From a virus: DNA of 64,000 bases. The notes below the pieces were generated by a model that worked only from the letters and a program-made list of their open reading frames with translations, did no database searches and was not told the origin of the DNA. Below, one piece after another: positions 24,363 to 55,955 of this stretch (its first letter is position 1; every line of letters begins with the position of its first letter). The DNA lies in IMG/VR virus record IMGVR_UViG_3300020448_000004, positions 26,580 through 90,579 of that record; one strand, given 5' to 3'. The translations under genes were made by a program, and so were the position numbers.

Positions 24363-24890
24363 TTAACCACAGAGAACAGTAGGTGAACCATAAGCAACGA
24401 CAGACTTACAGGGCCAGGATGCTTTTGGAACTCCTGCACCTAATGGGTCTAGCATTCTGGCAACTCTTCTCTTAAGGGCAAATACTGTAAATGTAGTAGC
24501 GTTTAAAATTCTTTCGTGACCAACACCACCTTTATCTTCTATAGTCAACAATCCACAAATTATCGGTGTTGGAATAATACACATTGCTTTTCCGCAAGGA
24601 CACAAATAATTTATGATATTTGTAGTAGGAGATATATGCGGAGTAAAAACATCCAACTCTAACATAATGGGAAGTTTATTTACTAATACTGTTGATCTCT
24701 CAGGTGTCAACCCAGTTAAAGGAATCAATGGAGTGGGTGGCCACCAACAAGTTTTATCTTTTATCTCGATAGTAAATGGTATGGGTGGACTTCCGCAAGG
24801 TTGTTGATTATGAATAGTTGAAGGTATAGGAATCCCGTGCCCACTACAAGGTAGACCATTATGACTTGCAACTGGCATTGGTTTTCCCAT
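24363..24890 (-). CDS. 5.4: PAAR-type baseplate spike tip (gp5.4-like)
   Basis: 175 residues with the proline/glycine/cysteine/histidine-rich pattern of phage PAAR proteins: PVASHNGLPCSGHG near the N-terminus, repeated PCG and CxxP motifs, and a C-terminal ARMLDPLGAGVPKASWPC, SVVAYGSPTVLCG segment. PAAR proteins sharpen the central spike with a metal-stabilised cone. Position ahead of genes 25 and 6 matches T4 gp5.4. It is longer than minimal PAAR proteins (about 90-100 residues), implying an added middle region. Confidence 0.75.
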   Translation of the reverse strand: MGKPMPVASHNGLPCSGHGIPIPSTIHNQQPCGSPPIPFTIEIKDKTCWWPPTPLIPLTGLTPERSTVLVNKLPIMLELDVFTPHISPTTNIINYLCPCGKAMCIIPTPIICGLLTIEDKGGVGHERILNATTFTVFALKRRVARMLDPLGAGVPKASWPCKSVVAYGSPTVLCG

Positions 24891-28350: not shown

Positions 28351-28624
28351 CCATTTGTGCTAGAGTTTCTTCAATTTTATTTAGTCTGTCAAAAATAGTG
28401 TCAAATACCTGTAGTAAATTACTATGGTTATCATTTCCTGGGATTTTATACTGTATCATATCTGCACCTCTACTTAAGAATGCTTCTATCTGCTGAGTAC
28501 GATTGGCAAGGTTAGTAGCAGTCTTTGCTATCATCTCAAACCTCCACTCGTTCTCCTCTTCTATAGATTTAAACTCAGGTACCTCTATATCTTGAGGTAT
28601 TACTAGATCTTCTTGGTTTTCCAT
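28340..28624 (-). CDS. Helical/coiled-coil hypothetical protein (94 aa)
   Basis: Acidic N-terminus followed by long predicted helices (FEMIAKTATNLANRTQQIEA and VFDTIFDRLNKIEETLAQMD). Its ATG overlaps the stop of the upstream oxygenase gene (TAATG) and its end overlaps the 1096-residue gene by 11 nt. It may be a chaperone or small structural partner of that protein; this is inference from coupling. Confidence 0.65.
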   Translation of the reverse strand: MENQEDLVIPQDIEVPEFKSIEEENEWRFEMIAKTATNLANRTQQIEAFLSRGADMIQYKIPGNDNHSNLLQVFDTIFDRLNKIEETLAQMDAR

Positions 28625-29160
28625 TAAAAATAATTAAAATTCAATACTACACGGAACTTTTGGTCTGTGCAACTGGTACCTGCGTGAGGTGTATTCACCT
28701 TAAATTTTAGCAAACGATTTGCCTTACTGTCAATTTTAGTACCGTCTTGAAAGTATGTATAACCATTATTGTCATTTAGATAGTATATTGCAGTAGTAGC
28801 ACCTTCAAACTCATTAGACCCATACTCACCACAGTCTGTATGAAAGTCATATTCCTGTAGTCTATCAGTATGATGGTTTAGGTTTGCCTTTATACGTATC
28901 AGTGCTCTTGGTTCTAAACGGTTCACTATAGGTAGTACCTTCTCATATTGAGGTCCTAGAGGTTGTCCTCCTCCATATACGTAGTTTACCATTTGCCAGT
29001 TATATATTTCTTTCGCTTGTAAGTCAGGATCTATCATTCGGGCAACGTGCATTACCTTCGCTTGGTTTACATACCACGGAAAGTCTTGTCCCACGAAGTA
29101 ATCTCGAACATCCTCAAATTCGTTCGGGGGGAGGTAGTTATCGATTATTTCAAAGTTCAT
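28624..29160 (-). CDS. 2OG-Fe(II) dioxygenase family protein
   Basis: 178 residues. The facial triad is visible: HxD in YDFHTDCGEYG, distal His in NTPHAGTS, and the 2-oxoglutarate-binding Arg in KFRVVLNFNYF. The double-stranded beta-helix order matches prolyl-4-hydroxylase-like phage oxygenases, which hydroxylate protein side chains or small molecules using oxygen and 2-oxoglutarate. The annotated start is the ATG preceded by an in-frame GTG. It sits between the NlpC/P60 group and a large tail gene, so a virion protein is a plausible but untested substrate. Confidence 0.85.
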   Translation of the reverse strand: MNFEIIDNYLPPNEFEDVRDYFVGQDFPWYVNQAKVMHVARMIDPDLQAKEIYNWQMVNYVYGGGQPLGPQYEKVLPIVNRLEPRALIRIKANLNHHTDRLQEYDFHTDCGEYGSNEFEGATTAIYYLNDNNGYTYFQDGTKIDSKANRLLKFKVNTPHAGTSCTDQKFRVVLNFNYF

Positions 29161-29230
29161 CACGATTTCAGAATAGTTACGACGTTCGCGGGGGTAACGT
29201 TTCTAGCGTCAGACCCCTCTATATGCCCCT

Positions 29231-44520: not shown

Positions 44521-44843
44521 CTTTTTTTAACAGGTGGTAAGTACTCATTTCCAGGGTGGTCATTGGTTTTTCCCTTATAATTCTTTACATTTTTGAAGTG
44601 TGAATCTTCAATTTCTAAATTATCCCACTCGTGTCGAGGGCATACTACATTTACTTGTCTGTGTCCATCTTTATACAACTTGTCAGGTATTTTTCTGACA
44701 CATATTGTGATGTAGTGATCTGATATGAAACTAATAGTTCCAACATCATCATTCCATTTAATCGGCATACCGATTTCTAGTGATTTTAAGATGTTTCTTA
44801 GTTCCAATGGGATTGATTCTGATAAGAATAAGGGTGTTGTCAT
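44517..44843 (-). CDS. Conserved cyanophage-type hypothetical protein (108 aa)
   Basis: PLELRNILKSLEIGMPIKWN, DDVGTISFISDHYITICVRK, then PRHEWDNLEIEDSHFKNVKN and a basic GKTNDHPGNEYLPPVKKR tail. The WNDDVGTISFIS...YITICVR beta core looks like a small OB/SH3-type barrel, and I recall close relatives in T4-like cyanophages. Function unknown to me. Confidence 0.7.
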   Translation of the reverse strand: MTTPLFLSESIPLELRNILKSLEIGMPIKWNDDVGTISFISDHYITICVRKIPDKLYKDGHRQVNVVCPRHEWDNLEIEDSHFKNVKNYKGKTNDHPGNEYLPPVKKR

Positions 44844-45385
44844 TTAAGGTAAAACTCAAGAACACTCACGTTATTTCCTGTATGTCCAATGCTAAGAGTC
44901 ATTGAACTAGGATATAAACAAAAGTTTCCTTCAGTTGGTGTGAATTGAAATTCATTTGAATTTACTAAATTTTCATTACCAAATTTTAGATCCAAACCTG
45001 CAAACCATTGCTCTGAATTGTCTGTCCAGACCATTTGTGATTTAGGTTCTTCAATAAACCATACTCCAGTTAATATTCTATCATTTTTTGGTAGTAAGTG
45101 CAACGATTGTCCTTGTTTCAATCTATGTACATAGGACTCTTGTAATTTAAGTTCCGTTTCCAATCCAATTAGACCTGACATAGACTCTAATTGTGAATAA
45201 ATTAATGTTTTCCACGCAACTTGTCTAGTCGCAACATCATTATTCACACTTTTACCTGTGTCATTATTGACTAAAAGTGCATTTGCGTGTTGCTTTGTGC
45301 CTTGTTGAGACTCACAATATTGAATATAGATCGGTTTACCGAAAACTGGTAACAGATCAACACTCTGGAATTGTACTCGATTCAT
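44840..45385 (-). CDS. Degenerate 2OG-oxygenase-like double-stranded beta-helix protein
   Basis: 181 residues with the layout of the TIGR02466-type oxygenases nearby: SLHLLPKNDRILTGVWFIEE stands where active members have HxHxxxSGxYY, and GNFCLYPSSMTLSIGHTG followed by SVLEFYL stands where they have the distal His and Arg. The HxD/E pair and the 2OG-binding Arg are not visible, so it may be inactive or use other ligands. It lies in the small-protein operon, not the halogenase operon. Homology is inferred from layout. Confidence 0.5.
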   Translation of the reverse strand: MNRVQFQSVDLLPVFGKPIYIQYCESQQGTKQHANALLVNNDTGKSVNNDVATRQVAWKTLIYSQLESMSGLIGLETELKLQESYVHRLKQGQSLHLLPKNDRILTGVWFIEEPKSQMVWTDNSEQWFAGLDLKFGNENLVNSNEFQFTPTEGNFCLYPSSMTLSIGHTGNNVSVLEFYLK

Positions 45386-45591: not shown

Positions 45592-45618
45592 ATTATAGCG
45601 TTTATTTAATGTCGTCAA
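45592..45618 (-). promoter_or_regulatory. Sigma70-like promoter of the nine-gene operon
   Basis: Minus strand: -35 TTGACG, 15 nt, -10 TATAAT. The hexamers are good but the spacer is short. It overlaps the TGA of the last gene in the oxygenase/halogenase operon. Confidence 0.45.
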
Positions 45619-46247
45619 GGGGAAACATTAAACGTTAATGTGATTCTGTTAGCGTGTCCTGACCCTTCATATCCGTGTTGTAAGTTAGGGGGGTGAATTA
45701 TAATATCACCTTCATCATACGGTACTGTGCAGTCTAATTGATTAAATGCGTTCATTTGTGTTGTATTAATTTGAAGTATAGGATAGTGTGATGAAATTAT
45801 ATTTCTCCTAAATTTCATCATAGTGTGTCTCTCTCTATCAAAGTTAACGTAGTAAGTTCCTGAGTAGATGCAATTACTATGTTCGTGTGGTGCATATAAC
45901 GCACCCTGTTGTCCTAATTCCAAATAACTGTCAGCAAAGTGTGTGCCATCAGTTAGTTCATAACAAAATGACTGTTTATTTACCTCATTAACTGCGTTCT
46001 TGATCTCGTTTTTTAATTCTCTAAATTCTGGTAGTTCAAGGATTTGATGATCTCCTAATTGTGAGACATTAACAGATATAGTAGGGTGCTTATTTTCTAA
46101 TTTAGAACCATCTAATTCAGCAATATACTGCATAATGATAGTTTTAAATTTTGCGTGATTCTTTACTTTATACTTTCCTACTGGTTGCATAAAGACACCA
46201 TACACATTTGTGTCTGATACATTTTCTAGTGAGTCTGATAAGTTCAT
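45615..46247 (-). CDS. 2OG-Fe(II) oxygenase family protein (TIGR02466-like)
   Basis: 210 residues. YAPHEHSNCIYSGTYYVNFD provides the first metal motif (HxH with the SGxYYL strand typical of this subfamily), GDIIIHPPNLQHGYEG the distal His, and NRITLTFN the Arg that would bind 2-oxoglutarate. Expected reaction: oxygen- and 2OG-dependent hydroxylation of an unknown substrate. Last gene of the 13-gene operon; ATGA overlap upstream. Confidence 0.8.
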   Translation of the reverse strand: MNLSDSLENVSDTNVYGVFMQPVGKYKVKNHAKFKTIIMQYIAELDGSKLENKHPTISVNVSQLGDHQILELPEFRELKNEIKNAVNEVNKQSFCYELTDGTHFADSYLELGQQGALYAPHEHSNCIYSGTYYVNFDRERHTMMKFRRNIISSHYPILQINTTQMNAFNQLDCTVPYDEGDIIIHPPNLQHGYEGSGHANRITLTFNVSP

Positions 46248-46954
46248 AATAATGGAATGAGAGAGAATTGATCGTCAGGTAGTGTTGATTGAGTTATAAT
46301 ATCAAAACCCAAAGTAATCCTATCGCCTTTATAATCGTTGTTAACTACGACTTTGTGCATCCTCGAAAACCCAGGCCCCAAGTAGATATTTCCAATTTTA
46401 TTGTTTATAGTATATTCGTATGCTCCTACTGGTAAATGCTCTTTGAATTTTGTTACTGAATCTTTTGGGTCAATACTAATATATCCGTGCCAAGGAAAAT
46501 GATGATCGTGCCAATTCAATACTTGATCTGGTTTATGAAAATTCATCCAACATTGCATCCATAATGGGTCATCTGGATTACCACCAAAATTACTTAAGTG
46601 TTTCCTTACAATTACACTAAGTTCTTTTAATAAATGATAAAACAGAGGACTAGGGGAAGTTAGATTAAATACATTATAAAATCTATATCCACTCAAGTCT
46701 CCCGATTTCATATTTTTTAGTTGTTCTATATCATCTTGTCGTGCATCTACCTGAGAAAATAAATCTGGTAGTGCATCAAGTGTTAGTCCATCATTTTTTA
46801 ATGACGAGTCACACCCTGTAAAAGTATTCTTGAATAGACGATATGCTCTACCAAGTTGTACTTTCATTTCCTCTGATTCATTGGATACAACTTCTGATTT
46901 ACAGACTACCCAATCCTCTCCTGAGTCAATTAAATTAGGTTCGTAGTTACGCAT
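46244..46954 (-). CDS. 2OG-Fe(II) oxygenase family protein
   Basis: 236 residues. Metal site candidates: WHDHHFPWHGYISID (HxH) and GFSRMHKVVVNN (distal His), followed by GDRITLGFDI (Arg). The N-terminal 90 residues are helical and acidic and may form a substrate-binding cap. Overlaps neighbours by 4 and 8 nt within the operon. Confidence 0.75.
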   Translation of the reverse strand: MRNYEPNLIDSGEDWVVCKSEVVSNESEEMKVQLGRAYRLFKNTFTGCDSSLKNDGLTLDALPDLFSQVDARQDDIEQLKNMKSGDLSGYRFYNVFNLTSPSPLFYHLLKELSVIVRKHLSNFGGNPDDPLWMQCWMNFHKPDQVLNWHDHHFPWHGYISIDPKDSVTKFKEHLPVGAYEYTINNKIGNIYLGPGFSRMHKVVVNNDYKGDRITLGFDIITQSTLPDDQFSLIPLL

Positions 46955-47582
46955 TGCTATAAGGATTTTGTGTAATAGGGTTTAGTGATATGTTTATGTT
47001 AACAACTGGTCTCCACGTCTTACTGGGGGTCGTAGAAGCGTGGAATAGGTCGCCTTTAAAGGCAACTGCTCTACCCTTTTTAGGTGTGACTCTAACCTTC
47101 TCTGTGAAGTTATCTTCTTTCAGATATTTGTTATAGTCATAATCATTTAGGGTTCTTTCGTTGTAGATAATTGTGTCTCCATCTGAGTTATCCATATAAT
47201 ATATTACGTTCCAACTGTCTGGAACGTATGAGTCAATGTGTGGTAACTGTGTCACGTTATTAAACATAGCGGGTACACAATTAATTCTCATTCTCATTAA
47301 ATTAAATGCACTGATTTTGTCCATAATGTTGAGTGCCATAGGAACAAATGCGTTACATAAAGGAGATACATTTCCACCTTTATCACACTCATACATATAA
47401 TGAAAATTACAGAACCCATTTCTAGGGTCTGCCGAATTTGCATCCATAATTGCTGAGTCTTTTCTGTGCCACATCAAGTTTTCATCTTTAATTAAAGAGA
47501 TTAACCATTCTTGATATGTTTCAGATACGAGATCATCAACAATTATATAATCAGGAATTTTTGGAAATGCAGGACTAATCAT
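46947..47582 (-). CDS. 2OG-Fe(II) dioxygenase, prolyl-4-hydroxylase-like
   Basis: 211 residues from ATG 47580-47582 (MISPAFPKIPDYIIVDDLVS), which follows AGGAGG closely and overlaps the upstream TAG by 8 nt; another ATG four codons upstream is possible. HxD in LPHIDSYVPDSWNVIYYMD, SDGDTIIYNE strand, GDLFHAST distal His, and RPVVNINI Arg: a complete triad. The KKGRAVAFKGDLFHAS stretch is typical of phage prolyl-4-hydroxylase-like proteins and is echoed by the gene at 49235-49771, a likely paralogue. Confidence 0.85.
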   Translation of the reverse strand: MISPAFPKIPDYIIVDDLVSETYQEWLISLIKDENLMWHRKDSAIMDANSADPRNGFCNFHYMYECDKGGNVSPLCNAFVPMALNIMDKISAFNLMRMRINCVPAMFNNVTQLPHIDSYVPDSWNVIYYMDNSDGDTIIYNERTLNDYDYNKYLKEDNFTEKVRVTPKKGRAVAFKGDLFHASTTPSKTWRPVVNINISLNPITQNPYSNA

Positions 47583-47811
47583 CTTCCTCCTCATCTTCTG
47601 CTTTGAAAACTAATAATTCATCACCGTTTTTCACCTCTTGCATTTCGGGGTGTGATGTTCTATATGGTTTCATAGCATCACCATAACTGTTAGTAGGTGA
47701 TCTATCCATTTCTTTTAATGTTGCTGTCATCACCTTGAACATATATGCAAAGGTCATTGCAAATAGTGCAACAAAGAAACACAAATAAATGAATACTGTG
47801 GTTTCATTCAT
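47575..47811 (-). CDS. Small membrane protein with HPEM motif (78 aa)
   Basis: N-terminal hydrophobic helix (FIYLCFFVALFAMTFAYMF, residues about 7-25), then YRTSHPEMQEVKNGDELLVF and a Glu/Asp-rich tail. The RxxHPEMxxVxxGxELLVF motif matches a small membrane protein I recall from many T4-like cyanophages. Its presence in the middle of the modification operon is notable. Function unknown. Confidence 0.75.
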   Translation of the reverse strand: MNETTVFIYLCFFVALFAMTFAYMFKVMTATLKEMDRSPTNSYGDAMKPYRTSHPEMQEVKNGDELLVFKAEDEEEDD

Positions 47812-47891
47812 TTTTTAACTTTCTCCCATTGAATTATGAGAAATATTCCTAGTGTTACCCAAAACACTATTTCTAGTCCGTAATTAGTCAT
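47808..47891 (-). CDS. Very small membrane protein (27 aa)
   Basis: MTNYGLEIVFWVTLGIFLII followed by a short basic tail QWEKVKK: one transmembrane helix. ATGA overlaps on both sides argue that it is a real gene despite its size. Confidence 0.6.
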   Translation of the reverse strand: MTNYGLEIVFWVTLGIFLIIQWEKVKK

Positions 47892-48619
47892 AATAGTTCC
47901 TCGATTGCTTCATCATCTTCATCAAAACCCTCTCCAGTATTGTTTTCACATTTACCGTAGTATGGATCGTGATTTTGTAGTGATTGTTCATTTCTTACTA
48001 AATCACTTGCTGCTTCCCAAGGTGCTGCAAGCATTGGTCTGCCATCCCATTTTCTGTTAGCGTATTGTCCGTTCTTATCAACATAAGAAACGAAACATTG
48101 TATTTGTTCTTTGTTTCCTTCGTAGTTTGGTCGCCAATGCAAATCTTCGTGTCCTTTGAAAATTACCGAATCACCTGTTTCCAAAAATAATTCGTGTTTC
48201 TCACCGTTAACATCTATAAAGAATGACCATTTATATTGTGGGTCTGCTGTTACACAAATGTTTCCCACCCATTCTCCCGAACTACGATCTCTATGCTGAT
48301 AGCACTCTGTGTTTTTTACATACAACCTACCATAACTAAATGTTTGCCATAATTCTTTTTCAATTAATGTTTCAACAAATGGTTTATGGTACTGTCCCAA
48401 TGCTTCAAAACATACAGGGCAATACATACTAAATGCCCCAGGCATAGTGGGGTCTCCCATAGGCATATCTGGATATTGGTATTGAACAACATCCTTTATC
48501 ATATGATATTCGAGTGCTGTGTGTTCACATAACTCTTTTGGAACTGCACTGCGGGCAACAAATAGACGATCTTCTACAAGAACCTCAACTGCTACACCTT
48601 CGTGATTAATTGTTCTCAT
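47888..48619 (-). CDS. 2OG-Fe(II) oxygenase-like protein (243 aa)
   Basis: YQHRDRSSGEWVGNICVTAD gives the HxD site, then a long beta segment (KWSFFIDVNGEKHELFLETG), GDSVIFKGHEDLHWRP with the distal His, and a final strand EQIQCFVSYVD in which the usual Arg is not obvious; the adjacent Arg in LHWRP could serve. The acidic C-terminal 60 residues are an extension. Operon member with ATGA overlap at both ends. Confidence 0.75.
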   Translation of the reverse strand: MRTINHEGVAVEVLVEDRLFVARSAVPKELCEHTALEYHMIKDVVQYQYPDMPMGDPTMPGAFSMYCPVCFEALGQYHKPFVETLIEKELWQTFSYGRLYVKNTECYQHRDRSSGEWVGNICVTADPQYKWSFFIDVNGEKHELFLETGDSVIFKGHEDLHWRPNYEGNKEQIQCFVSYVDKNGQYANRKWDGRPMLAAPWEAASDLVRNEQSLQNHDPYYGKCENNTGEGFDEDDEAIEELL

Positions 48620-49245
48620 AATACTTTACCAAAAAATACTAGGGTTAATCGACCTGTGGTGATGTCATTTCCAAAATAATCACCGCCTGAGTGGTATTTT
48701 CTACCATCAAATATGATGCAGCGATTAAAACGTGCTTCAACTGATGTATTAGGAGTGAAATGTTTATTACAGTCCACTCTCATTTTATTCAGTCGTTTTC
48801 TTAATTCAATATCATCTGTAGTTACATTTGATTTGAACTCTTTTTCATAGTTGATGCTATCGTCATTGCTAGGTACATCATATAATATTGTACCACAATT
48901 TTGTGGATTTGTCTCGTTTAAATAAATCAAACCACCGATACCATAATCATCATCATCCCTATGAATCCATCCCGATTCATAATCATCTGTACATACGTGG
49001 AAAGTTGCATCTAATTTTTCAAAGTATGTTGCGTGTGGTATATACTGAATTAATTTTTGTGCTAATTTTTGATGAAAACGATAATCATTTTCGTGTAGTA
49101 ATGGAGTTGCTCTCACACCTGACCAATAACCACCTGACGGATGTTTCGCAGCAGGTAAATAATTCAATCCTAATGCCCATTCTCTTACGAGTGTGGGTGT
49201 CTCAAAGAAATCATCTACAACTACTGTGGGATAATTATATGACAT
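48616..49245 (-). CDS. 2OG-Fe(II) oxygenase-like protein, DUF6445-like (209 aa)
   Basis: GWIHRDDDDYGIGGLIYLNE (HxD), then NTSVEARFNRCIIFDGRKYH with the distal His, and GRLTLVFF with the Arg. The YNYPTVVVDDFFETPTLVRE N-terminus and FDGRKYHSGGDYFG motif are typical of the DUF6445 family as I recall it, a hydroxylase-like group. Overlaps the upstream gene by 11 nt. Confidence 0.75.
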   Translation of the reverse strand: MSYNYPTVVVDDFFETPTLVREWALGLNYLPAAKHPSGGYWSGVRATPLLHENDYRFHQKLAQKLIQYIPHATYFEKLDATFHVCTDDYESGWIHRDDDDYGIGGLIYLNETNPQNCGTILYDVPSNDDSINYEKEFKSNVTTDDIELRKRLNKMRVDCNKHFTPNTSVEARFNRCIIFDGRKYHSGGDYFGNDITTGRLTLVFFGKVL

Positions 49246-49771
49246 AATTAAAATTTAAAACTAATCTGTGTGAGTTTTCTTTAGGGCAACTAGATGAATG
49301 ATATATTAAACCATTAAAAGTTACGATCCTACCTTTTTTAGGTTTCACCGTTTGGATCACCGATCCATTAGGATTAAAGAAATAGGTGTCACCATCACTA
49401 TCATTCACATAATATAATGTGGTTGTGTGTGGTATCTCCGCATCTATGTGTGCGTGATTATAACCTGTATTTGTATTTAATAGTAATCCACCCTTTGCTC
49501 TTAACAATTCAAAGTTTGGATTATCTACAATAGTTAGAAACAATGGAAACAAGAAATCCCAATAACGTGACTCGTGTTCACTTTGTCTATCATAAAATAA
49601 ATGTGCAAATCCAGTAGTTCCTGTTGCGTTTGCGTTTATATTTTTTGCTACATCATTCTCTCTGTATGTGACATCCTGTAAAAATGTCCACGGAAATACC
49701 GTGTTAGTCATCATACTGTAAATTCTGTCCTGATATAACTCAGGTATTATGTCATCTTTAATCGCAATCAT
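49235..49771 (-). CDS. 2OG-Fe(II) dioxygenase, prolyl-4-hydroxylase-like (178 aa)
   Basis: HxD in YNHAHIDAEIPHTTTLYYVN, SDGDTYFFNPNG strand, PKKGRIVTFNGLIYHSSS distal His, and HRLVLNFNYV Arg. Shares the SDGDTxxxN and PKKGRxVxFxG...H signatures with the 211-residue gene at 46947-47582 and ends like the separate oxygenase at 28624-29160. The triad is complete. Confidence 0.85.
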   Translation of the reverse strand: MIAIKDDIIPELYQDRIYSMMTNTVFPWTFLQDVTYRENDVAKNINANATGTTGFAHLFYDRQSEHESRYWDFLFPLFLTIVDNPNFELLRAKGGLLLNTNTGYNHAHIDAEIPHTTTLYYVNDSDGDTYFFNPNGSVIQTVKPKKGRIVTFNGLIYHSSSCPKENSHRLVLNFNYVI

Positions 49772-50357
49772 AATTAATAGTTAAACAAACTCTATCTTCA
49801 TCAGTTTGGTTTACCTGTGTTCTATGTTTTAACCACCCTGGAAATACTATTATGTCATTTGTTTCTACTTCAACTTCTTTCCATAATGAAATTTGAGGTT
49901 CCCCTGGACTGCCCCATCTATGGTATTCCAATGGATCTCGGTATTCAAAGTTTCCAGTTTTGTTTGGTGCTTTCAAATAACAACTAACAACCATAGGGCA
50001 TTGATTATGATAATGTTCCATAGTTTTTCCCGTTTTTTTATGTACGTTTACCCAAGAACGAACGGGTTTTGTTATCTTGTTACTATATCCCCAATGTGTC
50101 CATATCTCTTGTAACTTTGGTTGTAGAAATATGAACAAATCTTCTAACACTTCCCAATTATGTGGAGAATGTTCCTGATTATATACTGTAGAAAATGATG
50201 CACCAGTTTCTAATGCTGATCCAGTTCCATAATTCTGTATAGTATGGTCTATCAGTTTACCGATATGTTCTTGTAGAGACTCTCCTTCGTATGCAAACTC
50301 GTATTTGAGTTTCCATAACCAATGAACCTCATCTAATGGTTTAAGATGATGATCCAC
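49758..50357 (-). CDS. 2OG-Fe(II) oxygenase family protein (TIGR02466-like)
   Basis: 199 residues. MEHYHNQCPMVVSCYLKAPN gives the HxH-type first site, GNFEYRDPLEYH the middle strands, DIIVFPGWLKHRTQVN the distal His, and EDRVCLTINYD the Arg. The PGWLKH motif is characteristic of this subfamily. Overlaps neighbours by 14 and 17 nt. Confidence 0.8.
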   Translation of the reverse strand: MDHHLKPLDEVHWLWKLKYEFAYEGESLQEHIGKLIDHTIQNYGTGSALETGASFSTVYNQEHSPHNWEVLEDLFIFLQPKLQEIWTHWGYSNKITKPVRSWVNVHKKTGKTMEHYHNQCPMVVSCYLKAPNKTGNFEYRDPLEYHRWGSPGEPQISLWKEVEVETNDIIVFPGWLKHRTQVNQTDEDRVCLTINYDCD

Positions 50358-50646
50358 CTATAATCTCCATTTCTTCATTTCCACCACCTTCAACCTCAAG
50401 GTTGTTTGGAATAGAAACTTCACCGTCATCACCAAGAACATCACGTTTACAAATCATTAGGGCATCAATAGCACCTTCTAATTGTGATCTTTTTTTAATT
50501 GCTTCAGATCGTTTCTCAAACTCAATGGTTGTAACACCGTATGGGTTTAATTTTTTGTCAGCAAACTCTTTGTCATAGTTTTCAATTTCTAAATCTACCT
50601 GTTGCTGTTGTAGATAGAAATTTTGGATTAGTTCGTCAATAGTCAT
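50341..50646 (-). CDS. Coiled-coil hypothetical protein (101 aa)
   Basis: MTIDELIQNFYLQQQQVDLE and EFEKRSEAIKKRSQLEGAID indicate a helical coiled coil for residues 1-65; the remaining third is Gly/Glu/Ser-rich and probably flexible. It may be a scaffold or partner for the surrounding enzymes. ATGA-coupled to the upstream gene. Confidence 0.65.
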   Translation of the reverse strand: MTIDELIQNFYLQQQQVDLEIENYDKEFADKKLNPYGVTTIEFEKRSEAIKKRSQLEGAIDALMICKRDVLGDDGEVSIPNNLEVEGGGNEEMEIIGGSSS

Positions 50647-51455
50647 TTGTTTTTGTGGTAATTAATTGCCTTCATAGCACGAGATATACGACCTTGAACA
50701 TTATCGTGTATCATATACTCGGCATTGATTGAGTAATTAAAAGCGTGTTCTAAATCCCAATCTTTATCAGTCGCATTATTGACTGTCATATCATACCACC
50801 CTTTCTCTAAGTAAATACGTGGTATAGGTATATATTGTGCTAATGGAGTACCTGCTTTCACAAGTGTTCCATCTGTGCCACTATCCATAACGTGCCATTG
50901 TAATTGCACGTTGACTTGCATAGCATATCTAGGATCAAAGATCCCAGTCACAGCAGTAAAACGATCTTCATTATTCCAATGAACGTGTTGTTGTAATAAA
51001 ACAACATCATCACTAGATGTCAGTCGCCAAGGTGTTTCCACCTTAATTATGTGTGCTAATGTGTCACGTGGACTGTCAATTAATGGAATAACCTGTTCTG
51101 GTGCGTGATTACTAATGTAATTAGTATGTCTTGAGAATCGGCCAGGGGTTTCCCAAGTAAAAGATGCACCATCACCATTTGTGATAATAATAAAATCCAT
51201 AGGTGCAACAACTACCCATCCCATTCTCGCAATTTGCTTGATACCAGGGCAGTTTGAACTATTCTGTGATCCTTGAAAAGGGCATTTTTTGTCTTTTGTT
51301 TCTTTTTCTTGCCAAGAACGTTTAATCTTAGATGTTGGCATAACTGGATAACACTCTGCCAACCCAGGTTCTAGACTGTGAAATCTAACCCAAGACTTAG
51401 GTTCTTTTTTCTTTTTCTTTTTAAATAAGTTCAGCACGTAATTCATCCCCTCCAT
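50643..51455 (-). CDS. DUF6065-like protein (270 aa)
   Basis: After a Lys-rich N-terminus comes KCPFQGSQNSSNCPGIKQIA, GWVVVAPMDFIIITNGDGAS and a beta-rich body with ETPWRLTSSDDVVLLQQ and GTPLAQYIPIPR. This order (two Cys-Pro motifs, a PxDFxI strand, GTPLxQxIP) resembles the DUF6065 family, which I recall next to halogenase or oxygenase genes. It may be a substrate-binding or partner protein. The gene overlaps the halogenase end by 35 nt; an internal ATG at 51444-51446 is an alternative start. Confidence 0.6.
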   Translation of the reverse strand: MEGMNYVLNLFKKKKKKEPKSWVRFHSLEPGLAECYPVMPTSKIKRSWQEKETKDKKCPFQGSQNSSNCPGIKQIARMGWVVVAPMDFIIITNGDGASFTWETPGRFSRHTNYISNHAPEQVIPLIDSPRDTLAHIIKVETPWRLTSSDDVVLLQQHVHWNNEDRFTAVTGIFDPRYAMQVNVQLQWHVMDSGTDGTLVKAGTPLAQYIPIPRIYLEKGWYDMTVNNATDKDWDLEHAFNYSINAEYMIHDNVQGRISRAMKAINYHKNK

Positions 51456-53061
51456 AGATGTAGTCTCTCAAGTATTCATAGTGTGTAGGGCAGTCATCAC
51501 TCTCAACAAAGTCATTGACTTCTTTTTGGTATTGTAAATGACTGTTCTCAACGAATGTAAGTTCATCTGGATCACGATCAGCATACCAATCCCGTCCTAA
51601 CATCATTCCTTGACCTGCTGCTATGTAATTCATACCGTTCATATTTACATCCATAGTTTGATCTAGGTCTAATGATGATCCAAGTCTCTCATAGTTATCA
51701 TTGACTCTAACTACACCATCAAACTGTTCTACTACATACTCGTTTCTTTGTGAACACCACCTCCAATAAGGATTATCTGTTCTTTGTGATAGAGCATAGT
51801 GCATAGCAACAAACTTACTAAATCCAATTACTTCTCTCTGTGCAGCGTAGTTATACCAGTTTCTTTCTATTTGTGTTACATATCCTCTTCTTCTTGATAA
51901 CACATCTACCAGTCTGAGTATATTTTCGTGTGTTGTTAACAGTCCCGTTGACTCTAATGGTTCAACAAATCCATAAGACAGTCCAATAGCAACAACATTC
52001 AAGTTCCACGCTTTTTCGTGATACCCGTGTTTTATATCAATAGTTCCTACCTCATACTGATCTGGTGATACACTATATTTTTGTTCTATCCACGTTTCAA
52101 ACTCTGTCCTAGTCTCTGTTTCCATTGCAAATCGAGATGACCAACAATATCCAACTCCGATCCTATTCCATAGTGGTATTGACCATAACCAACCATTTTC
52201 CGCTGCTTGACAGTCAGTCACGTTGTGCATATGTTTTTCTCTTTCGTCTTGTGTGAGATATGGTATGCGGGCAAAATATGCTTTATCGTTTGCTAAATCA
52301 TTAAATTTAATAAACCTAGTACCCATATACTCTTCTAATAGGACTGATTTAAAACCAGTACAGTCAATAAACAAGTCGCCAATAACACCTACAGTCCTTT
52401 TATCTTCATTTAATCTGACTGCTAACTGTTTAATATATCTGTTTGAGACTGCGGGTGAACCACCTGCGTTTATATCTTTCACCGATCCCCTGACTTCACC
52501 TCTAATATGTGTAAATCTATCATCAAAGTTATCACAATACTCATCCCTTAGATACTCTGCAAACTTTTCAGCATCTAAATGATATGCAACGTCAGTCAAC
52601 CAATCAAAGTTTCTCCATCTATTATCTCTATTATCCCATTGCTTATTATGTTTTACCAACGCTGAGTTTTCTTTGTTAAAGAACTCTGCAAATGATTCTG
52701 GAGGAAAATCTTCTGGTCTTTGTCTAGCAAGATCAAACCAATCTTTCATACCTTCTACAGTATCAGTATAATCATATTTACCAAATGGATATTGAAATAC
52801 TGTTCCCTTCTCTCTAAAATCTGTAAACTGAATACTATTCTTATATGTTGCATTACACTTAGGCATCCAATCTTTATCTTCTAAGTCTAATGCTCTTAAA
52901 TACTTGTTAAAATGACCTAATGTAGATTCTCCTACACCGACTGTAGGTTTGTCTGATTCAATTAGAATTACATTTGTCCACGGGCAGCACTTTAATAATG
53001 CAGCAGCAGTCATCCAACCTGATGAACCACCACCCACAATAACAATGTTTTCAACTTTCAT
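51421..53061 (-). CDS. Flavin-dependent tryptophan-halogenase family protein (546 aa)
   Basis: FAD-binding GGGSSGWMTA at residues 10-19 and GVGESTLGHF near 42-51. Lys74 in CNATYKNSIQF aligns with the catalytic Lys79 of PrnA. WLWSIP at 291-296 is the halogenase WxWxIP motif. FVEPLESTG supplies the conserved Glu-Ser pair. These enzymes use FADH2, O2 and halide to form HOX, which reacts through the Lys. A related cyanophage enzyme, VirX1 of Syn10, is known to halogenate, including iodination. A FAD reductase is not seen nearby. AGGGGA Shine-Dalgarno; starts 2 nt after the second halogenase gene. Confidence 0.9.
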   Translation of the reverse strand: MKVENIVIVGGGSSGWMTAAALLKCCPWTNVILIESDKPTVGVGESTLGHFNKYLRALDLEDKDWMPKCNATYKNSIQFTDFREKGTVFQYPFGKYDYTDTVEGMKDWFDLARQRPEDFPPESFAEFFNKENSALVKHNKQWDNRDNRWRNFDWLTDVAYHLDAEKFAEYLRDEYCDNFDDRFTHIRGEVRGSVKDINAGGSPAVSNRYIKQLAVRLNEDKRTVGVIGDLFIDCTGFKSVLLEEYMGTRFIKFNDLANDKAYFARIPYLTQDEREKHMHNVTDCQAAENGWLWSIPLWNRIGVGYCWSSRFAMETETRTEFETWIEQKYSVSPDQYEVGTIDIKHGYHEKAWNLNVVAIGLSYGFVEPLESTGLLTTHENILRLVDVLSRRRGYVTQIERNWYNYAAQREVIGFSKFVAMHYALSQRTDNPYWRWCSQRNEYVVEQFDGVVRVNDNYERLGSSLDLDQTMDVNMNGMNYIAAGQGMMLGRDWYADRDPDELTFVENSHLQYQKEVNDFVESDDCPTHYEYLRDYIYGGDELRAELI

Positions 53062-53063
53062 AA

Positions 53064-54548
53064 TTAATTCCCCTGCTCATTATATAGGTACTTTTCATAG
53101 TATTCATATGCGTTCGGGTATCTCCCTAAAGTCTGATCCATAAAGGTTCTTCTTAGGATCGGTTCTTCAAAATCAGGTATGTTATATCCATTTCTTTTGG
53201 ATAACATTTCATAATGTTCTGGCATTATATCATATTCATAACCTCCTAGCAAGTATGCTTCACCCTCTGAAACACAATTCAATGCTTGTATTTGCTCCCA
53301 ATCACGTGTAAGTAAATCTGGAAACTCACCTAGTGCATCCATATCCGTGTAATCTTTCCAAAACGGTGTATCATCTCTATAACCCATAGTATAATGTTTC
53401 ACAACAAAATCTCTGAATGATGTAAATTTCTTTCTGACTGAGTGATTAAATTGTTCTCGTTGAAATCCGTTCCATTTATTAGACGCTCTGGGTAATACTT
53501 GTATGAGTTTAAATAAGAACTCGTGGACTGAGTACAGTCCTCCAGACTCTAATGGTTCTATAAAACCTGCACTTAAACCAATACTCACTACGTTATGTGA
53601 CCATACTTTCTCTCTAATCCCTGTTGGCCACTTAAGTAATCTAAACATATTCTCTGGTATATCTACTCCTAGATGCTCTTTAAACTCTGCAAGTGCATCT
53701 TCATCTGTAATATATTGTGAACAATAATTATATCCCGTTCCGATTCTATCCCAAGTAGGTACATTCCATACCCATCCCGAACTCAAACCTGTACATTCGG
53801 TGTATGGTTGCATTTCTGTTTTCTTATTTGTATATGGTTTTCTTACCGCCCAAGTAGAATCATTTTTTAATAATGTACTCCAATCTTCCCATTTAACGTT
53901 AAGTTCGTTCATTAATAATGCACGAAATCCAGTGCAATCTATGAAGAGATCACCATCAACGTACCTATCGTCAGTGCCAAGGAAAACTCTGCTAACCCCA
54001 TCCACGCAGGATTGAATGTTAGTGACCGTACCTTTAATGTGTTTAACACCTTTTGGAATTGCATAATGATCTCTTAAAAAATTTCCGAATAATAGTGCGT
54101 CAACGTGATAACCCACAAATCTTTCTAAAAATGGAGGATAAAGACGGTTGACTTCAATAGGGTCTATAACATCTGAGAATACCCTACAAAAGGTCATACT
54201 GTCAATATTTCTTCCTCTCCTCCAATTATAATACTCGGTCAGAGGTATATTCGTGCCTCTTGTACCGAATGGATAATGAAATGAACCGTCTTGATTGAAG
54301 TTAGTAAACTTGACACTATGTTTATATGTAGCATTACAATGTGGCATCCAATCTTCATCTTTGAGATCGAGATACCGTATAAAGGTATTAAAAAACTGTG
54401 TCGTGCTTTCTCCGATTCCGATTCGTGGAATGTCTGCTTCGACAACAGTTATTTCTATACCAGTCCCTTCAAAATGTCTTGACAACATAGATGCTGTCAT
54501 CCACCCTGCACTACCACCTCCGATAATGCAGATTCTATCTAACTTCAT
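53064..54548 (-). CDS. Flavin-dependent tryptophan-halogenase family protein (494 aa)
   Basis: FAD-binding GGGSAGWMTA at 10-19 and GIGESTTQFF; Lys76 in CNATYKHSVKF is the catalytic Lys position; WVWNVP is the WxWxIP motif with Ile changed to Val; FIEPLESGG replaces FVEPLESTG, so the residue after Ser differs (Gly for Thr). All catalytic residues remain, making activity plausible with a changed pocket. Tandem with a 546-residue paralogue, it is first in the 13-gene operon with a TATAAGTA late-like box 21 nt upstream. Confidence 0.88.
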   Translation of the reverse strand: MKLDRICIIGGGSAGWMTASMLSRHFEGTGIEITVVEADIPRIGIGESTTQFFNTFIRYLDLKDEDWMPHCNATYKHSVKFTNFNQDGSFHYPFGTRGTNIPLTEYYNWRRGRNIDSMTFCRVFSDVIDPIEVNRLYPPFLERFVGYHVDALLFGNFLRDHYAIPKGVKHIKGTVTNIQSCVDGVSRVFLGTDDRYVDGDLFIDCTGFRALLMNELNVKWEDWSTLLKNDSTWAVRKPYTNKKTEMQPYTECTGLSSGWVWNVPTWDRIGTGYNYCSQYITDEDALAEFKEHLGVDIPENMFRLLKWPTGIREKVWSHNVVSIGLSAGFIEPLESGGLYSVHEFLFKLIQVLPRASNKWNGFQREQFNHSVRKKFTSFRDFVVKHYTMGYRDDTPFWKDYTDMDALGEFPDLLTRDWEQIQALNCVSEGEAYLLGGYEYDIMPEHYEMLSKRNGYNIPDFEEPILRRTFMDQTLGRYPNAYEYYEKYLYNEQGN

Positions 54549-54568
54549 TTGTCAGTAGTTTGTACTAC

Positions 54569-54576
54569 TACTTATA
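54569..54576 (-). promoter_or_regulatory. Late-promoter-like box (TATAAGTA) of the halogenase operon
   Basis: One mismatch to TATAAATA, ending 21 nt upstream of the first halogenase ATG and lying just behind the stop of the fibre-associated gene. Followed by a small AGTAGT/ACTACT dyad. Confidence 0.5.
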
Positions 54577-54585
54577 ATACTTTCG

Positions 54586-55113
54586 TCAACCTTCTCCCAG
54601 TTCATCATATGCACCACCCCAGTTAGAATATCTTTCCCAACAAGGTACATCTTGTGATGATAATTTGCAAGGTCTGTTGACACTTGGTTCAGCAGCGTCA
54701 CTCATAAATTCTGCTACTTCCTCTTCAGTCATAGTGGGGTCCATTGGTTCCGCTACACTTGAAGGTGCAGTAGTCGCTGCTTTTACTCCTTTAATATGAT
54801 TAAACCATATTGCATCAGCAGCACCTAAATCTTTTCCCGCTGCAATGTCTTTATAGAGCATATCTAATTGTTCCCCGATTTCACCATACGCTACAACGCG
54901 AGCAGTAGCAGGGTCTGTATATGATTCTGTTCTTTCTATCCAGATCATATCAGCAGCAGCAGGACTCCACTCTAGTGTCCACGCTTTTGTTATGTTATCA
55001 GGTGCGTTTACCCACATCTGTGAACAACCTCTACCAAAGAATAGTGTATATTCTTCCCCAGGTTCTACAACGTCGGCAACGTAACCAGTAAAATCCATTA
55101 ATGCTTTCTTCAT
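54586..55113 (-). CDS. Tail-fibre-associated protein (175 aa)
   Basis: MKKALMDFTGYVADVVEPGE start, with ARVVAYGEIGEQLDMLYKDI near residues 86-105: the Y-x-x-IGxQLDML-x-D motif is common in phage tail-fibre-assembly and fibre-associated proteins. The C-terminus is acidic with a Cys pair. Located 9 nt behind the glycine-rich adhesin gene, so it may be its chaperone or cap. Inference from motif and place. Confidence 0.6.
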   Translation of the reverse strand: MKKALMDFTGYVADVVEPGEEYTLFFGRGCSQMWVNAPDNITKAWTLEWSPAAADMIWIERTESYTDPATARVVAYGEIGEQLDMLYKDIAAGKDLGAADAIWFNHIKGVKAATTAPSSVAEPMDPTMTEEEVAEFMSDAAEPSVNRPCKLSSQDVPCWERYSNWGGAYDELGEG

Positions 55114-55122
55114 AGTAACCTC

Positions 55123-55923
55123 TTATTTGTAGTTGATAACAGTAACAACACCATACTTACCGTTTGAACCACGGAAACTATGGAAGTGTCCACCTGACCC
55201 ACCTGCACCATACGCTGCGTGATCTTGATGATTATGTGAGAAGTTACCACCGTTTGGCCAACCTCCTGATACAGCACCACCAAAGTGAGAAGAACCTCCG
55301 ACTCCTCCACCACCACCGTGGTGTGACTGTCCTCCTCCACCCCAAACATTGAGGTCTCCACCAGAACCATTACGCCCTAGTCCACCTGAGTGTTGGTTGT
55401 TTCTATTAGCACCGTGTCCACCACCTGCTGATAGATATGGTCCAAATGATGATGAACCACCATCACCACCGTGTCCGAAGTACCAAGTACCTCCTCCACC
55501 ACCACCAACTGTGATACCAACTGAAGATATATTTACTACGTTCAATACACGTTCTGAATATCCACCTGACGCTCCTGATTCTCCGTGACCTGACGCTCCA
55601 CCGCCACCACCTTGAACTCTGATATGTATATACTTAACACCACTTGGTCTATTCCAAGTTCCGTTACCTGTCCATACTTGTAAGGATGAAATGTTTTCTG
55701 AACTAACATCAGTCCAACTCATAGATGAACCGTTTGTAGTTAAAAATTTACCACTTTGACCACTAACAGACGGAACGATCTGACTGGATGAACCAGACAT
55801 AGTTCCATTAATAGTGATGTTGCTAACTGTCAAATTTCCGTTAGCAGTGATGTTACCTGAAGCAAGTGTAAATCCACCAATGCCAGACAGGTCTCTAATA
55901 GATGCAACTTTAAGGGTACTCAT
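55123..55923 (-). CDS. Glycine-rich tail-fibre tip / adhesin-like protein (266 aa)
   Basis: The N-terminal half has short beta segments (MSTLKVASIRDLSGIGGFTL and repeats of IxxNGTxS). Residues about 120-255 are dominated by Gly-rich runs (QGGGGGASGHGESGASGGYS, GGGGGGTWYFGHGGDGGSSS, GGGGQSHHGGGGGVGGSSHF), ending KYGVVTVINYK. Such Gly tracts resemble polyglycine-II layered domains of T-even gp38 adhesins, whose loops set host range. A perfect late promoter lies just upstream. The tip assignment is inferred. Confidence 0.65.
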   Translation of the reverse strand: MSTLKVASIRDLSGIGGFTLASGNITANGNLTVSNITINGTMSGSSSQIVPSVSGQSGKFLTTNGSSMSWTDVSSENISSLQVWTGNGTWNRPSGVKYIHIRVQGGGGGASGHGESGASGGYSERVLNVVNISSVGITVGGGGGGTWYFGHGGDGGSSSFGPYLSAGGGHGANRNNQHSGGLGRNGSGGDLNVWGGGGQSHHGGGGGVGGSSHFGGAVSGGWPNGGNFSHNHQDHAAYGAGGSGGHFHSFRGSNGKYGVVTVINYK

Positions 55924-55947: not shown

Positions 55948-55955
55948 TATTTATA
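55948..55955 (-). promoter_or_regulatory. T4-type late promoter (TATAAATA)
   Basis: Perfect consensus on the minus strand, ending 24 nt upstream of the glycine-rich adhesin-like gene. Confidence 0.75.

Follow-up and report, generated by a model that had tools for sequence, protein, structure and literature searches.

The halogenase cassette and its fibre-gene neighbours

The window examined here is a 64,000-nucleotide (nt) stretch comprising bases 26580–90579 of the 90,579-base IMG/VR virus record IMGVR_UViG_3300020448_000004, and its baseplate wedge, fibre, head-closure, tail-sheath-stabiliser and head-tail adaptor families assign it to a T4-like cyanomyovirus. The subject of this report is a cassette of thirteen open reading frames (ORFs), which runs from 54548 down to 45615 and includes two flavin halogenases (HalA and HalB) and seven 2-oxoglutarate (2OG)-Fe(II)-type genes (O1–O7), together with the two genes preceding it, a Gly-rich fibre-tip adhesin and its partner G40, whose halogenase-adjacent forms bear a C-terminal tail with one invariant tryptophan. 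The cassette genes, these two partners, the promoter boxes and the outlying relative O8 all lie on the minus strand. The earlier note on this DNA had described thirteen coupled genes, and every ORF is present with the order and overlaps claimed, all junctions being overlaps except a 2-nt gap between HalA and HalB. The limits drawn around this operon are softer, as flanking genes lie close by on either side: upstream, 9 nt separate the adhesin from G40 and 37 nt separate G40 from HalA, and downstream, a gene of 74 amino acids (aa) follows after 33 nt and is overlapped by O8. The thirteen-gene boundary is thus somewhat arbitrary.

Both halogenases anticipated by the earlier note belong to the VirX1 family and are intact by similarity and catalytic motifs. 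HalA (53064–54548; GGGSAG, K76, WVWNVP, E334) and HalB (51421–53061; GGGSSG, K74, WLWSIP, E370) match PF04820 with E values of 3e-101 and 3e-83, respectively, and retain the GxGxxG flavin motif, the catalytic Lys (K79 type), WxWx[I/V]P and the catalytic Glu. HalB aligns over its full length to VirX1 of cyanophage Syn10 (PDB 6QGM; E 1e-152), its best PDB match, while HalA aligns to it over 400 residues (E 1.8e-92); HalB is 47.7% identical to the Syn10 homologue and HalA only about 39%. The two fall in separate supported groups of a 74-sequence tree, which indicates an old duplication rather than a recent one. VirX1 has an open active site that takes bulky aromatics (PMC8407142), and for this one characterised viral halogenase, studied with synthetic substrates, no natural substrate is named in the literature found. 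An iodide preference and a trimeric state are further traits of the VirX1 type.

The G40 tail and the probable late fibre unit

G40 (54586–55113; phrog_1787) is a 175-residue protein encoded directly 5′ of HalA, and its AlphaFold model places five strands before a set of helices. The phrog_1787 match covers 116 positions, beyond which an extra C-terminal tail, approximately residues 121–175 (54587–54750), contains W159 in the motif DVPCW. A tail that is 25 residues or longer and contains a Trp, usually as P[A/C/S]W, occurs in 42 of 42 dereplicated halogenase-adjacent G40 proteins; among 36 homologues with no halogenase in view, which include distant and partial-domain sequences and only four or five that are full-length and syntenic, a tail Trp is missing from 35 and the remaining one carries it in a tail of just 16 residues. 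The two counts are not independent, because the Trp tail and halogenase adjacency share one origin, on a single branch of the G40 tree. Among 32 distinct tails, dereplicated on the tail itself, this Trp is the sole invariant column; the equivalent motif is PCW in syn9 gp40 and PAW in S-CREM1. In Syn33, S-H25, metaG-MbCM1 and S-RIM2, G40 follows a Gly-rich adhesin, has 102–119 aa and stops at the end of the family, and no Trp_halogenase match was found in these whole genomes. As background, P[ACS]W near the C-terminus occurs in 71 of 3119 other ORFs at these loci and in none of the 151 small ORFs that neighbour bacterial homologues; the nearest of these homologues is 35% identical, and nothing fibre-like or PxW-bearing lies beside them. 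What the tail offers as evidence is thus the retention of one residue together with a shared history, and as far as the literature and database searches reach, its link to halogenases is new.

Several other placements of such a motif were considered and set aside. One-Trp tails accompany two halogenases (S-RIM44, P-TIM40 and P-RSM6) and two-Trp tails accompany one (S-CREM1), so that two tryptophans do not correspond to two halogenases; no convincing PxW-type tail was found near halogenases lacking a G40 (S-B64, Sf-CH11, S-H38, L110, L127, L130 and others); and an FPAW in L126 and L127 falls inside an oxygenase fold. In one branch (L096, L100, L101, L103, L105, L108, L118 and L129), the gene between G40 and the halogenase encodes a protein of ~410 aa whose Cys clusters are conserved (e.g., CRNQCWDCHECERTFG); it has no C-terminal motif. 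It may resemble peptidase U32 proteins and is possibly another tailoring enzyme.

The adhesin (55123–55923; Gly_rich_2-like, phrog_863, named ‘tail fiber assembly’) lies 5′ of G40 and the halogenases and is preceded, 32 nt before its start, by a canonical T4-type late box, TATAAATA (55948–55955), which is kept in relatives whose flanking sequence has diverged. A box of this type stands before the adhesin in 34 of 64 loci; in another branch it immediately precedes the halogenase, as in 16 of the 64. The box from which the earlier note had started the operon, TATAAGTA (54569–54576), fares differently, reading TATAATTA in relatives that are 94–95% identical at the neighbouring protein. For synteny, 34 dereplicated loci were found with HalB alone and had at least 3.5 kb of upstream sequence; the Gly-rich adhesin and G40 both lie within 2.5 kb upstream of the halogenase in 31 of them. 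The late-type regulation and the connection to fibre genes that had been proposed are therefore supported by the conserved TATAAATA box and this synteny, and since the late box is conserved ahead of the adhesin and the TATAAGTA box is not, the late unit probably reads adhesin–G40–HalA–HalB and onward. Elsewhere among the virion-related genes of the window, a single ORF of 7028 aa (317–21403) directly after the baseplate wedge genes encodes a putative giant virion-type protein, and a PAAR-type spike protein family (phrog_281) is represented at 24363–24890, near baseplate genes.

Oxygenases, companion genes and distribution

The claim of seven 2OG-Fe(II)-like genes within the operon holds, four of them showing the classic HxD…H arrangement; the remaining three have HxH…H, a conserved putative variant of that site. 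In the former set, O2 (49235–49771; phrog_274/PF13640-type; H108-x-D110, H158, R169), O3 (48616–49245; DUF6445; H95-x-D97, H185, R199) and O5 (46947–47594; phrog_274-type; H119-x-D121, H185, R195) conserve HxD, H and R among 16–44 homologues, and O4 (47888–48619; phrog_2954) conserves H109-x-D111 and H161, with R163 beside H161. In the latter set, O1 (49758–50357; 2OG-FeII_Oxy_5; HxH at 115/117, H178, R189) and O6 (46244–46954; phrog_2696 with a weak PF13759 match; H149, H151, H200, R212) conserve the HxH…H…R pattern typical of their subgroup, and O7 (45615–46247; 2OG-FeII_Oxy_5/phrog_81; HEH at 121–123) shows an HxH-type pattern among 3 sequences only; the iron ligands of O1, O6 and O7, in a site of the PF13759 type, are putative. 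An eighth and a ninth relative had also been reported, and both exist; the eighth, O8 (44840–45385), lies outside the cassette and is degenerate, having no HxD or HxH iron site, with H33, H87, H96 and H168 as the histidines present. The ninth (28624–29163) and a further 2OG-type gene (L216:424-1041, record bases 424–1041) also lie outside the cassette, near baseplate and tail genes and near head-tail genes. Cyanophage 2OG-like proteins of these kinds (PHROGs 274, 1644 and 2954; 45615–50357) bear the PHROG or RefSeq names ‘DNA endonuclease V’, ‘minor coat protein’ and, as for O4, ‘ferrochelatase’, which are probably propagated misannotations. A comparison with known anti-phage defence genes gave hits to generic 2OG models alone.

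The remaining members of the cassette are a phrog_7084 protein of 270 aa (50643–51455), a coiled-coil-like protein of 101 aa that is kept in the cassette (50341–50646), a membrane peptide of 27 aa with an ATGA overlap at each side (47808–47891) and a membrane protein of 78 aa (47575–47811; phrog_275). The phrog_7084 protein had been labelled DUF6065-like, a link too weak to keep: the similarity lies below the Pfam cut-off, reaching at best E 0.089 in 2 of 31 relatives, and the window’s protein has no match to PF19541 (DUF6065) in its own record. Its structural model instead resembles solved dUTPases (Foldseek E 2.3e-4, probability 1.00, with a template modelling (TM) score on the query of only 0.34), so that a dUTPase-like fold is predicted.

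A search of related genomes for the same gene order, as the earlier note had suggested, recovered it in isolates and contigs down to 30–50% protein identity, and chance is excluded as its cause because the order persists at such divergence. The same cassette is found in syn9, S-RIM44, P-TIM40, S-CREM1, P-RSM6, S-WAM1, S-SZBM1, Sf-FP1 and Sf-FR1, and in dozens of IMG/VR contigs. Across 42 distinct loci with enough sequence, two halogenases occur in 23 and one in 19, and 2OG genes number 2–8 per locus, with 4–8 at the majority of loci and 6–7 as the commonest counts; moreover, ten 2OG genes are published for S-CREM1 (PMC9964418) and 24 for S-SCSM1 (PMC9602691). The size of the set, which had been thought unusual, is therefore ordinary for its group, and the cassette belongs to a known but uncharacterised group in cyanophages. 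In the syn9/Syn10 version (syn9 gp40–gp54, containing the VirX1 family), Gly-rich fibre genes, gp40 with its Trp tail, two tandem halogenases, phrog_7084, the coiled coil and a 2OG array recur, although the number and order of oxygenases differ from those of the window. Large and divergent sets of 2OG oxygenases are likewise found within the single genomes of S-SCSM1 and S-CREM1, but they are read in those publications as auxiliary metabolism unconnected to fibre genes (PMC9602691, PMC9964418), and no publication was found that treats the cassette as a fibre-linked system. Two related layouts were also seen: S-SM1 (L140, 33–40 kb of its record) has six or more 2OG-type genes at its fibre locus and no Trp_halogenase or phrog_1787 match in its whole genome, showing that oxygenase arrays can occur without halogenases, and Sf-CH11 (L014) has another halogenase with 2OG neighbours between two Gly-rich proteins and no G40, a different layout near adhesin-like genes.

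Candidate targets of the cassette

On balance, macromolecules of the phage or of a surface are the rather probable targets of the cassette, a protein-modification role being strengthened by the Trp tail. A narrower proposal, plausible yet somewhat short of even, is that of a dedicated cyanophage system that halogenates and hydroxylates its own fibre-tip proteins, either through the invariant Trp in the tail of the adhesin’s partner or through docking by it. In its most specific and still tentative form, the enzymes may halogenate and hydroxylate the fibre-tip/G40 complex, with W159 as the candidate halogenation site within a fibre-linked modification cassette. According to this mechanism, the adhesin, G40 and the enzymes would be expressed together late in a T4-like cyanophage infection; HalA and HalB would use reduced flavin adenine dinucleotide (FAD), O2 and a halide to halogenate W159, within the motif [D/E]xP[A/C/S]W of the G40 tail; the 2OG-Fe(II) oxygenases would hydroxylate residues of the adhesin–G40 complex while the fibre assembles; and accessory roles would fall to the coiled coil and to the dUTPase-fold protein of phrog_7084. 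We infer three of its elements: the modification of W159, the action of the oxygenases on the adhesin–G40 complex and the chaperone role of G40.

Two known systems lend this proposal its analogies. In Pam3, the distal tip of a Gly-rich fibre is clasped by the chaperone gp25 (PMC9608196), and the gp24–gp25 pair (PDB 7YPX) resembles the present locus in having a Gly-rich fibre gene followed by that of a small protein with a beta domain and a helical domain. The 162-residue chain of 7YPX (Pam3 gp25) is the top-ranked Foldseek PDB match of G40, although not a significant one (E 0.42, probability 0.09), no likeness of the G40 sequence to gp25 or to PDB sequence profiles was detected, and no Trp tail is reported for gp25, unlike G40; a BFVD search recovers the G40 fold in syn9 gp40 (TM 0.80) as well as in the S-RIM2 protein, which lacks the tail (E 6.6e-5). 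By analogy, G40 is a possible fibre-chaperone-like partner. The second system is SrpI/SrpE, from a ribosomally synthesized and post-translationally modified peptide (RiPP) pathway of a sponge microbiome, in which a peptide with a leader is brominated by SrpI at its C-terminal Trp, while free Trp and other Trp residues are left alone (PMC10286304). SrpE and G40 have in common a structured and then a flexible region, a Trp near the C-terminus after a small residue, and an adjoining flavin halogenase (PMC10858898, PMC10286304), while no homology between them is shown.

Several observations weigh against W159 as the halogenated residue. SrpI needs a terminal Trp, whereas W159 sits 16 residues from the end; the stretch around W159 is modelled with a predicted local distance difference test (pLDDT) score of about 90, so that the Trp may pack structurally instead of hanging free; and should G40 depart from the virion as Pam3 gp25 does, its modification would bring no obvious benefit. 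In addition to the single origin of tail and adjacency, there are seven to nine loci of freshwater type in which the halogenase lies 1.3–1.9 kb from a G40 that lacks the motif; this arrangement belongs to a sister group made up mostly of freshwater-type contigs, with the ~410-aa Cys-rich gene intervening before the halogenase. Nearly as good as W159 being the substrate is an arrangement in which the Trp tail of G40, itself unmodified, would recruit the halogenases and oxygenases to the adhesin that G40 holds, whose receptor-binding loops they would halogenate or hydroxylate, although taken by itself this is unlikely. It draws on the match of G40’s layout and gene position to Pam3 gp25, on the co-occurrence of tail and halogenase, and on the retention by the adhesin of F160, Y163, H201 and W90, yet the gp25 likeness is insignificant by fold and by sequence, and the composition of the adhesin, which the earlier note had offered as a possible substrate, shows no enrichment of Trp, Tyr or His in phages with halogenases against the four without them.

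A target outside the fibre tip has a similarly small share of the probability. The cassette could act on a giant fibre, lipopolysaccharide (LPS) or another virion or host-surface component, the G40 tail then being a lineage-specific structural feature; the single origin of tail and adjacency, the high pLDDT at W159 and the halogenases of S-B64, Sf-CH11 and S-H38, which lie away from any G40, would all fit, but one invariant Trp in divergent tails beside Trp-type halogenases would have to be a coincidence, and G40 proteins of halogenase-less phages lack the tail feature. It is equally improbable that the enzymes have a small-molecule or host-metabolism role, producing a halogenated or hydroxylated metabolite or shifting 2OG levels, for which published proposals exist, such as prnA antibiotic protection and 2OG nitrogen signalling (PMC2984593, PMC3037559, PMC9964418), and with which the acceptance of many small aromatics by VirX1 agrees. 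That explanation leaves the adhesin–G40 coupling and the Trp tail unaccounted for; seven divergent oxygenases exceed what 2OG consumption needs; and the operon consists of halogenases, 2OG-like and unassigned proteins, with no further biosynthetic genes as in a pyrrolnitrin-like cluster.

If the modification of fibre-tip proteins by this cassette is true, it would amount to virus-encoded protein halogenation and would supply a natural substrate for viral halogenases. The locus narrows the question to one 175-residue protein and one residue, W159, and isolates with and without the cassette exist. Phages would then diversify their host-recognition apparatus post-translationally with halogen and hydroxyl groups, and the reading of cyanophage ‘auxiliary metabolic genes’ would change along with that of fibre specificity.

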